Origin: Micrococcaceae bacterium RIT 802
GTDB lineage: Bacteria; Actinomycetota; Actinomycetes; Actinomycetales; Micrococcaceae
Direction: 5' to 3'
Assembly (NCBI GenBank): GCA_016892645.1
Contig: JAFEMX010000001.1
Location: 186,001 to 250,000 of the forward strand
DNA length: 64,000 nt
Shown here: piece by piece, positions 23,732-27,540 of the stretch
Layout: every line of letters starts with the position of its first letter
Position numbering within the stretch: the stretch's first letter is position 1
The notes under the pieces: model-generated
Told to the model about the DNA's origin: nothing
The model's database searches: none
What the model saw: the letters and a program-made list of their open reading frames with translations, nothing else
Translations under genes and position numbers: made by a program

Positions 23732-24598
23732 GTGCACAACCATTTCAACGGTCTCAAGACGGCTGCCCTGCTCGGGGGCATGTTCGCCCTGCTGCTGGTC
23801 ATCGGATCGCTGATCGCCTCCGGGACGGGCAACTCGGCATTCATCTGGATCTTCGCCGTGATCGGCTTGGCGACGACGGCCTACGGCTACTGGAACAGCG
23901 ACAAGATCGCCATCAGGTCCATGCAGGCCTATCCGGTGTCCGAACAGGAACAACCGGCCATGTACCGCATCGTCGGCCAGCTCTCGCTCAGCGCCGGCCA
24001 GCCGATGCCGCGGCTCTACGTCTCGCCGACCGCCGCCCCGAATGCGTTCGCCACCGGCCGCAATCCGCAGAATGCCGCCGTCTGCTGCACCGAGGGCATC
24101 CTGAACCTGCTGGATGAACGCGAACTGCGCGGGGTCCTCGGCCATGAGCTGATGCACGTCTACAACCGCGACATCCTCACCTCGTCCGTGGCGGCCGCCG
24201 TGGCCGGCGTGGTCACCTCGGTCGCCCAGTTCATGCTCTTCTTCGGCGGTGGCGACCGCCGCAACGCCAACCCGCTGGCCATGATCGCCACCGCGCTGCT
24301 GGCGCCCCTGGCGGCATCGTTGATCCAGATGGCGATCAGCCGGACCCGCGAATACGACGCGGACGAGGACGGGGCCACGCTGACCAACGACCCGCTGGCC
24401 CTGGCTTCCGCCTTGCGCAAGCTCGAGACCGGTGTCCAACGGGCGCCCCTGCCCGAGGACCAGCGCCTGGTCAACACCTCCCACCTGATGATCGCCAACC
24501 CGTTCCTCGGGGGAGCGAAGAAGCTCTTCTCCACGCACCCGCCGATGGCCGATCGCATCGCCCGGTTGGAGAAGATGGCCGGCAGGCCGCTCGGATAG
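23732..24598 (+). CDS. htpX: membrane zinc metalloprotease HtpX
   Basis: 288 residues, M48B family. Two N-terminal helices ([20 protein letters not shown] and the next) are followed by the protease signature [10 protein letters not shown] (first His about 138), two further helices, and the third zinc ligand in [11 protein letters not shown] (near 206). It degrades damaged membrane proteins. The GTG at 23732 follows AAGGAG by nine bases; the open frame from 23630 has no such signal. It appears monocistronic. Confidence 0.95.
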
Positions 24599-24750: not shown

Positions 24751-24803
24751 TTGATCATTGCGCAAGACGGGCGTAACCTCAGCAAGCAAGGCAAGCCTTG
24801 CCT
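24751..24803 (+). promoter_or_regulatory. efe promoter with DtxR/IdeR-like iron box
   Basis: TTGATC (24751-24756) and TAACCT (24774-24779) lie 17 bases apart. Nine bases after the -10 comes AGGCAAGCCTTGCCT (24789-24803), a 15-base dyad centred on a C. Aligned with the IdeR/DtxR consensus it keeps the AGG..AGCCT..CCT core, 11 of 19 positions by my count. It overlaps the expected transcription start, a suitable place for iron-dependent repression of the efe genes. Confidence 0.6.
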
Positions 24804-24832: not shown

Positions 24833-26224
24833 ATGATCGCCAATTTCCTGATCGGCCTGCGCGAAGGACTTGAGGCCGTCCTCATCGTGGTCCTCTTGCT
24901 CGCCTACCTCCGCAAGACCGGTCGCCGGCATTTGGTTCCACGGGTCATGCTCGGCGTCGCGGTGGCAGTGGTCGTCTCCCTCGGTTTCGGTGCGCTGCTG
25001 ACCTTCGGGCCGCGGGGCCTGACCTTCGAGGCCCAGGAGGCCATCGGGGGATCGTTGTCGATCATCGCGGTTGCCTTCGTCACCTGGATGATCTTCTGGA
25101 TGGCACGCACCTCCCGGTCCCTGGCCAGCGACCTGCACCATAAGGTCGATGCGGCCGCCGACGGTGCCATCGGTGTCACCAGCACTGCCGATGCCTGCAC
25201 CGTCAGCGCCGACACCGCACCCGGCGGGACCATGAAGTTCTCCGTGAAGAACGACGGCGACCAGGTCACCGAGTTCTACCTGCTCGCCGAGGACGGCCTG
25301 CGCATCATCGGCGAAGTCGAGAACATCGGCCCGGGCCTGAGCCGCGACCTGGTCGCCAGCGTGCCCGAAGGCAAGTACTTCACCTCCTGCAAACCCGGCA
25401 TGGTCGGTGACGGGATCCGGTCTGCCTTCACCGTGACCGCCCCTCCCGCCGGCCAGGAGGTCAGCGCCGACCGTGCCGCACTGCAGAAGACGGCGACGAC
25501 CCAGTACGCCAGCTACGTGAAGGACCAGTCCGAACAGCTCCTGGCCGGAACCCGCAAATTCGCCGCAGCCTACGCTGCGGGGGATGAGGCACAAGCCAAG
25601 GACCTCTACGCGGCAACGCGCACGCACTGGGAACGCATCGAACCCGTCGCGGAATCCTTCGGGGACCTCGACCCCATCCTCGACGCCCGCGAGGCAGACC
25701 TCGAGGACGGCCAGAAGTGGACCGGATGGCACCGTGCCGAGAAGGACCTGTGGCCGCCGAAGACCGGATACGACGCGCTCAGTGCCCGGCAGCGCACCGC
25801 GCTGGCCGACCACCTCGTCGCCAACACCGAGGAGCTGATCAGCCGCACGAAGACCGTGGAGTTCTCGGCCGACAAGCTCGCCAACGGCGCCAAGGCGCTC
25901 CTGGACGAGGTCGCCAGCGGCAAGGTCACCGGCGAGGAGGAGATCTGGTCCCACACCGATCTCTGGGATTTCCAGGCCAACATCGACGGCGCGCGCATCG
26001 CCTACGAGGACCTCCGTCCGTTGCTGGCCGAGAACGACAAGGACCTGGACGCCAGCCTGGAGAAGAACTTCGCCCAGCTGCAGGAGCTGCTCGACCAGTA
26101 CAAGAAGGGCGACGGATTCGTCTCCTATACGGACCTCAGCAAGGCCCAGGTCCGGGAACTCAGTGCCGCGGTGGATGCCCTGGCCGAGCCGTTGTCCCGG
26201 CTGACCGCCGCAGTCGTCAAATAG
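24833..26224 (+). CDS. EfeU-EfeO fusion protein (truncated FTR1 permease joined to EfeO)
   Basis: 463 residues. Residues 1-105 are the start of an FTR1-type iron permease: first iron motif REGLE (10-14), and three helices ending at [14 protein letters not shown]. Near residue 110 (about base 25160) the frame passes directly into EfeO: a cupredoxin-like domain ([10 protein letters not shown] to FTSCKPGM) and an M75/imelysin domain with HRAEKDLW. The second permease REXXE motif, four of seven helices and the EfeO signal peptide are all missing. With the usual topology, the EfeO part would face the cytoplasm. Iron uptake through this protein is therefore doubtful. efeB follows after two bases. 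The ATG at 24833 has GGAAG eight bases upstream. Confidence 0.85.
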
Positions 26225-26226
26225 CC

Positions 26227-27540
26227 ATGGATTCCCAGCACGACGGCGGGACCCCCTCCGCGGAACCGGTTCCACCACGCCGGGGACTGAGCCGGAGGTC
26301 GCTGTTCACCGTGGCGGGCATCGGCGGCGTGGTCGGCGTCGCCGCCGGCGCGGCCGGTGCCGAGGCCCTGGACCGCCGGGCCGCAACGCGGCCGGTCAAC
26401 GACGTCGTGCCCTTCCGCGCGGAGCACCAGGCGGGCATCGACACCGCGGCGCAGGACCGGATGCACACCGCTGCCTTCGACGTCACCGCCTCGGACCGCG
26501 ACGGGCTCATCTCGTTGCTGCAGGACTGGACCGCGGCCATCGAGCAGATGGCCTCCGGCCAACCCGTCGGCGGGCCGGAGGGGGCGACCGGCGGACTGTA
26601 CGAGGCGCCCCCGGAGGACACGGGCGAGGCCCTGGACCTCTCGGCCAGCCACCTGACCGTCACCATCGGTTTCGGCAGGACGCTGTTCAGCCGGGACGGC
26701 AAGGACCGCTTCGGGATCGCCCATCGGATCCCCGAGGCGCTGATCGACCTGCCGCACTTCCCCGGAGACGCGCTGGAGGACGCCCGCAGCGGCGGCGACC
26801 TGGTCGTGCAGGCCTGCGCCGATGACCCGCAGGTCGCCGTGCACGCCATCCGCAACCTGGCCCGGATCGCCTTCGGCCGCGCCACGGTCCGCTGGAGCCA
26901 GATCGGGTTCGGCCGCACCTCGTCGACCTCCCGCAACCAGGCCACCCCGCGGAACCTCTTTGGTTTCAAGGACGGGACGGCGAACATCAAATCGGAAGAC
27001 TCCGAGGTGCTGGCGGAGCATGTCTGGGTCTCCGGTGCCACGGGTGCCGAGTCGTGGATGAATGCGGGCACCTACATGGTCGTGCGTCGCATCCGGATGC
27101 ACATCGAGACCTGGGACCGCACGTCGTTGCGGGAACAGGAGCAGGACATCGGCCGGACCAAACGGGACGGGGCGCCGCTGTCGGGCGGCACCGAATTCAC
27201 CGAGCCCGACCTGGCCATGAGGGGAAACGCGGGGCCGCTGATCCCGGCCGACTCCCACGTGGCGTTGGCCCATCCGAGCCGCAACAAGGGCGTGCAGATG
27301 CTGCGCCGGGGATTCAACTACACCGACGGATCGGACGGGCTGGGCCGGCTGGACGCCGGGCTGTTCTTCATCGCGTTCGTGGTGGACCCCCGGACCCACT
27401 ACGTGCCCATGCAAACCGCCATGGCCAAGCACGACCTGTTGGCCGAATACCTCAGGCATACCGGCTCCGGTCTGTTCGCCGTGCCCCCGGGATTGCCCGG
27501 CTCCGGCGGCTACCTGGGCCAACCGCTGTTCGACGCGTGA
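26227..27540 (+). CDS. efeB: Tat-exported deferrochelatase/DyP-type peroxidase EfeB
   Basis: 437 residues. A twin-arginine signal (LSRRSLFTVAGIGGVVGVAA, about 20-40) precedes a DyP peroxidase fold with the heme-pocket motif GFKDGTAN (near 245) and HYVPMQ near the end. In the EfeUOB system EfeB oxidises ferrous iron or removes iron from heme outside the membrane, feeding the EfeU permease. It starts two bases after the fused efe gene, so it is in the same operon. The protein looks intact, in contrast to its partner. Confidence 0.93.
   Translation: MDSQHDGGTPSAEPVPPRRGLSRRSLFTVAGIGGVVGVAAGAAGAEALDRRAATRPVNDVVPFRAEHQAGIDTAAQDRMHTAAFDVTASDRDGLISLLQDWTAAIEQMASGQPVGGPEGATGGLYEAPPEDTGEALDLSASHLTVTIGFGRTLFSRDGKDRFGIAHRIPEALIDLPHFPGDALEDARSGGDLVVQACADDPQVAVHAIRNLARIAFGRATVRWSQIGFGRTSSTSRNQATPRNLFGFKDGTANIKSEDSEVLAEHVWVSGATGAESWMNAGTYMVVRRIRMHIETWDRTSLREQEQDIGRTKRDGAPLSGGTEFTEPDLAMRGNAGPLIPADSHVALAHPSRNKGVQMLRRGFNYTDGSDGLGRLDAGLFFIAFVVDPRTHYVPMQTAMAKHDLLAEYLRHTGSGLFAVPPGLPGSGGYLGQPLFDA

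Follow-up and report, generated by a model that had tools for sequence, protein, structure and literature searches.

When a single reading frame joins the beginning of one iron uptake gene to most of the next, does it encode a working protein, mark the loss of two genes or reflect an error of assembly? The window, by which we mean the whole stretch of 64,000 nucleotides analyzed here, contains such a frame: 463 residues (positions 24833-26224, plus strand) in which the N-terminus of the permease EfeU runs directly into EfeO. The initial annotation of this DNA had left four readings side by side, namely a deletion across a short similarity, a pseudogene in the making, an assembly collapse and a new protein architecture; comparison with congeners and the similar codons at the break favor the first two taken together. 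With a probability of about 0.8, a real and recent deletion of about 0.68 kb fused a stub of efeU to efeO in frame and gave a null allele; its recency, exact size, membrane topology and loss of function are what we infer. The locus shares with the ferrous iron uptake operon EfeUOB (YcdNOB) its gene order, an iron-box-like site, an EfeO with cupredoxin-like and M75 parts and an EfeB of the deferrochelatase/peroxidase family; it differs in that EfeU is cut to helices 1-3 and joined to an EfeO with no export signal.

The identity of the two halves is supported by translation and by both Pfam and NCBIfam profiles, which bear out the single frame, its coordinates and its composition as first described. 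The frame begins with an ATG at 24833, and a TTG further upstream, at 24758, would open it too. The three N-terminal helices of EfeU account for residues 1 to about 109, where about 105 had been proposed, and mature EfeO for those from about 103 to 461. The Pfam FTR1 profile matches residues 1-109 over profile positions 1-113 of 284 (score 90.1, above the cut-off of 25.3), and the NCBIfam EfeU model NF041756 matches residues 5-113 over positions 1-110 of 257, its 141.6 bits lying below the cut-off of 255. The EfeO equivalog model NF041757 covers residues 103-461 (profile positions 9-359 of 359) at 481 bits, above its cut-off of 270, and Peptidase_M75 (PF09375) is matched in full at residues 221-457 (profile 1-288 of 288). 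The translation includes GWHRAE, an instance of the M75 motif, which passages in two papers describe as of GxHxxE type (PMC3143127) and as HxxE (PMC3577903). On the DNA, the EfeU/FTR1 remnant, with helices 1-3 and the first REGLE motif (residues 10-14), occupies 24833-25150, and the EfeO part, cupredoxin-like and M75/imelysin with its stop codon, occupies 25166-26224, both on the plus strand.

An EfeU/FTR1 permease carries two REXXE motifs. In the fusion the second REGLE motif is absent, and the profile matches stop at residues 109-113. By one measure of hydropathy there are three hydrophobic segments, as had been claimed, compared with six in a congener's EfeU, and thus fewer than the seven membrane regions that part of one paper gives for Escherichia coli EfeU (PMC9174327). 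The signal starts with a lipobox-like cysteine seen in relatives' EfeO are also missing, and EfeU helices 1-3 precede the EfeO part instead. The losses named in the initial annotation (second REXXE motif, later helices, intergenic region and EfeO signal) are all seen when the fusion is set against its congeners. The possibility that helices 1-3 form one unit of an internal repeat in EfeU found no support: a profile comparison of the two halves, using an alignment of 110 EfeU sequences (69 retained for the first half), matched them only around REGLE, over 13 columns and with a probability of 22.5.

Alignment with the intact genes of close relatives, which had been proposed as a check, supports a deletion. 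In both congeners compared (G001 and G002), efeU is a separate gene (a 292-codon frame scoring above the EfeU cut-off) followed by efeO, and the distance between corresponding codons is longer by 677 bp in G001 and by 679 bp in G002, slightly more than the roughly 0.6 kb that had been expected of intact genes. The excess in G001 comprises 174 EfeU codons and a further 155 bp that start at the efeU stop codon, run up to the corresponding EfeO residue and hold the spacer, the lipoprotein signal and a linker. The switch from EfeU-like to EfeO-like sequence falls within about 15 bases (25151-25165, plus strand), which places the cross-over where it had been put, near 25160 and in the same frame. 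In this junction zone the Ala-Asp-Gly codons are alike in both parents, as judged from congener efeU and from the EfeO of relatives. Congener EfeU reads HKVDGAADG-KAW at the break, the fusion frame has a 20-residue stretch there, and relatives' EfeO near the join shows a 14-residue stretch in one example and ASADGAISVVSTDDAC in another, with DG-AI, ADG-SI or DG-TI at the break. Ala-Asp-Gly-like codons thus stand on both sides of the break in the same phase, which would explain the in-frame product. The two sides are not identical in G001: within 60 bases of its two break points, no exact word longer than 10 bp is shared. The deletion is likely to have run across a short similarity, and the microhomology itself is suggested by the wider set of relatives.

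The same junction appears to be confined to this genome within the family. A search of 395 family genomes, including that of the window, took up to four candidates per genome and listed matches to about E = 3e-51; a match spanning the join would be expected high in that list, and none of those listed for the 394 other genomes spans it. The relatives were the best 80 of 584. Of the other EfeO loci, 124 distinct ones in all, 118 have separate genes (meaning that the EfeU and EfeO matches end in different frames or stops), five show no EfeU in the stretch covered and one, L115, is an in-frame fusion. The EfeU model matches 139 of the 395 genomes, 130 of them above the cut-off. The nine below it are the window; two genomes with internal deletions (G296 and G400); G335; G250, with an EfeU piece at a contig end; G375, with two pieces on two contigs; G010, whose nearly full-length EfeU lies just below the cut-off; and the marginal G141 and G272. 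In G335, a draft that is 79% complete, a stop divides the efeU match (L145, C50:20000-24500) between two frames, one of which contains a TGA. In another locus (L051, from Arthrobacter sp. Hiyo8, AP014719.1), translated efeU and efeO appear to slip out of frame near helix 3 and near the signal, a shift that may be real or a sequencing error.

The genes on either side of the fusion are in place. Downstream, efeB (26227-27540, plus strand) encodes a DyP-type peroxidase and is intact as claimed, scoring 485.7 bits against the curated TIGR01412 cut-off of 428 and containing both Dyp_perox domains; its start, RRGLSRRSLF, is twin-arginine-like when read by eye. Upstream lies an M48 peptidase gene (23732-24598, plus strand, start codon approximate; PF01435, tested from 23735) that is 94.1 and 95.8% identical to its counterparts in the two congeners; it adjoins efeU upstream in G001 and is on the same stretch in G002. 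Between the M48 gene and the fusion, at 24789-24803 on the plus strand, is the 15-base palindrome AGGCAAG-C-CTTGCCT (AGGCAAGCCTTGCCT), the only match to its pattern in the window. Both congeners have AGGTAAGGCTTACCT upstream of efeU, and the distance from palindrome to start codon is 47 bp in G001 and 44 bp here. This iron-box-like palindrome resembles the DtxR/IdeR operator, whose consensus it does not match at the outer positions. A stricter iron-box pattern, requiring A/T two bases ahead of the palindrome as well, finds no match here.

The topology of the product can be predicted from hydropathy and charge. Basic stretches of membrane proteins tend to stay cytoplasmic (the positive-inside rule), and the stub has two, KTGRRH after helix 1 and a stretch of 13 residues after helix 3. 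With these and its three hydrophobic segments, the stub is predicted to have its N-terminus outside and its C-terminus inside, so that the EfeO part would face the cytoplasm; the cytoplasmic placement claimed earlier thus agrees with both patterns, as a prediction. EfeO is periplasmic in E. coli according to part of one paper (PMC9174327), and part of another describes a relative in Staphylococcus aureus as a predicted lipoprotein (PMC3577903). Both permease and EfeO function are probably lost, since the second REGLE motif and later helices are gone and an EfeO placed inside would have no access to iron on the outer side. Expression of EfeB may continue, driven by the promoter that carries the iron-box-like site. 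Under the favored explanation, a deletion of about 0.68 kb in this lineage would have taken all but the first third of efeU, together with the spacer and efeO's lipoprotein signal, and the similar Ala-Asp-Gly codons would be where the two genes came together in frame. The result would be a three-helix EfeU stub bearing a cytoplasm-facing EfeO, neither part working in its role, in an operon that would remain under the iron-box-like site and still encode EfeB.

How old might such an event be? Where conservation across relatives reaches 97% or more (101 EfeU and 108 EfeO sequences, leaving out those below 55% identity, short or identical sequences, the window genome's own loci and L115), the fusion has no changes, either at the 34 positions in the EfeU part or at the 101 in the EfeO part. 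Intact relatives average only 0.30 (EfeU) and 0.74 (EfeO) changes at the same positions, so that a count of zero is nothing unusual. For a gene free to drift since the fusion, the lack of any change across 135 conserved codons caps divergence, by a rough hand estimate at the 95% level, at 3/135 per codon, which corresponds to about 0.01 neutral substitutions per site; at fourfold sites of four genes, divergence from the two congeners is 0.50-1.27 substitutions (Jukes-Cantor). The absence of changes under so low a ceiling suggests that either the branch acquired the fusion very recently or selection still maintains it. The control for decay is weak: when the same test is applied to the other efeU stubs, 3 of 15 positions are changed in G400 and 0 of 15 in G296, and decay is detected in one of the two. 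Nor is the fusion clearly accelerated. Its EfeO identity is 67.8% to a Brevibacterium sequence (congeners, 67.0 and 67.5%) and 71.6% to that of Glutamicibacter soli (70.7 and 70.4%); to Arthrobacter sp. C2 it is 73.9%, a little below the congeners' 75.4 and 77.7%, and to NIO-1057 it is 70.7%, below their 72.7 and 72.1%. A slight acceleration would be compatible with these values.

The lack of decay would also be expected of genes that are intact in the cell, and this is the argument for an artefact of assembly or culture, in which the chromosome would carry complete efeU and efeO and the 0.68 kb was dropped, or a minority deletion was sampled. The assembly is a draft of 38 contigs (3.87 Mb), which adds to this reading, but the join lies inside a contig of 619 kb, of which the window is a part. 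Other observations make an artefact unlikely. A shared word of 10 bp would probably be too short to cause an ordinary collapse in a k-mer assembler, and in the congener the break has no long repeat beside it, which makes the collapse proposed in the initial annotation unlikely. In addition, the missing part of EfeU is not found elsewhere in the assembly. The FTR1 model has one match there, at the fusion and over profile positions 1-113 only; an intact congener EfeU, searched with E values up to 10, is matched only at the fusion, over query positions 1-117; and the fusion protein itself finds a single match, its own locus.

Selection for the fused protein is an alternative to recency, as a clean frame and zero broken positions would be expected of it too, and a working new architecture would accord with the way both halves have kept their conserved positions. 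In such an architecture, a three-helix EfeU anchor would hold EfeO and serve a changed iron role, for instance binding iron at the cytoplasmic face of the membrane. The retained iron-box-like site and efeB fit this idea, and EfeU-EfeO fusions do exist: part of PMC3143127 notes an EfeU domain at the N-terminus of some few EfeO proteins, and in L115 (G042:C5:251500-257000, frame from base 1032) EfeU and an EfeO-like part are likewise in one frame, EfeU first. However, L115 is of the opposite design. Its two REGLE motifs are both present, and directly before the EfeO part comes an extra hydrophobic segment, which would place EfeO outside, whereas the protein here lacks one of the two motifs and is not a full-length fusion of that kind; this truncated architecture is not seen among the matches listed for other family genomes. 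We consider a functional new architecture improbable, and still less probable a half-permease, in which the three-helix unit and EfeO would be under selection as a cytoplasmic-side iron binder or a self-paired, simplified channel. Equally slight is the probability that loss of EfeU was tolerated or advantageous, with EfeO lost as collateral and EfeB continuing to work on its own, for example in handling haem or peroxide, an account that overlaps with the deletion giving a null allele and differs only in its selective reading. Its attraction lies in other genomes of the family. In G296 (L143, C43:113500-118000) and G400 (L144, C105:3500-8000), two different large deletions inside efeU leave efeO and an efeB-like frame, and EfeO is conserved despite the broken permease (in each genome, a single change among the 101 conserved positions). 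Three more genomes, G221 (L146), G079 (L147) and G366 (L148), have EfeO with no EfeU in the 5.0-5.5 kb around it, and the EfeU model, with its matches in 139 genomes, finds nothing in these three. Members of the family have thus repeatedly lost EfeU while retaining EfeO. The stubs in G296 and G400, unlike the present one, keep helix 1 and a C-terminal piece, and efeO there retains its own signal-like start, which has gone here. Six FecCD-type permease matches in the window's own genome may supply other iron routes, which therefore probably remain, though no FeoB scores over the cut-off and ferrous uptake may accordingly matter. Elsewhere in this genome and outside the window (G000:C2:147116-149095), two FecCD matches share one open frame of 705 codons, perhaps a double permease. 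The idea that efeU loss is selected for resistance to excess iron was set aside; the relevant part of PMC8003623 only cites the 2007 EfeUOB paper.

The proposed null allele has precedents. In E. coli K-12 MG1655, according to part of one paper, a frameshift in efeU leaves a non-functional permease gene (PMC2808357). There too the permease gene is naturally inactivated within its operon, by a frameshift rather than by a deletion that, as here, extends into efeO and removes its signal; together with the two other deletions in the family, the frameshift as described there suggests that breakage of efeU recurs. Among the titles and abstract openings listed from an open-licence library, none names a truncated EfeU-EfeO fusion arising by deletion. 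Natural inactivation of efeU and EfeU-EfeO fusions being already known, the present fusion is a further, clean and recent-looking instance, and a neat but fairly ordinary loss event. It also carries a warning for annotation, in that a curated EfeO model scores well over its cut-off for a protein whose orientation in the membrane is probably wrong for an EfeO. For the organism, it apparently means that an iron uptake system has lost two genes at once in nature, and so freshly that decay has not set in. For the family, the efeO and efeB genes that remain in G296 and G400 bear on what role EfeO and EfeB have without the permease.
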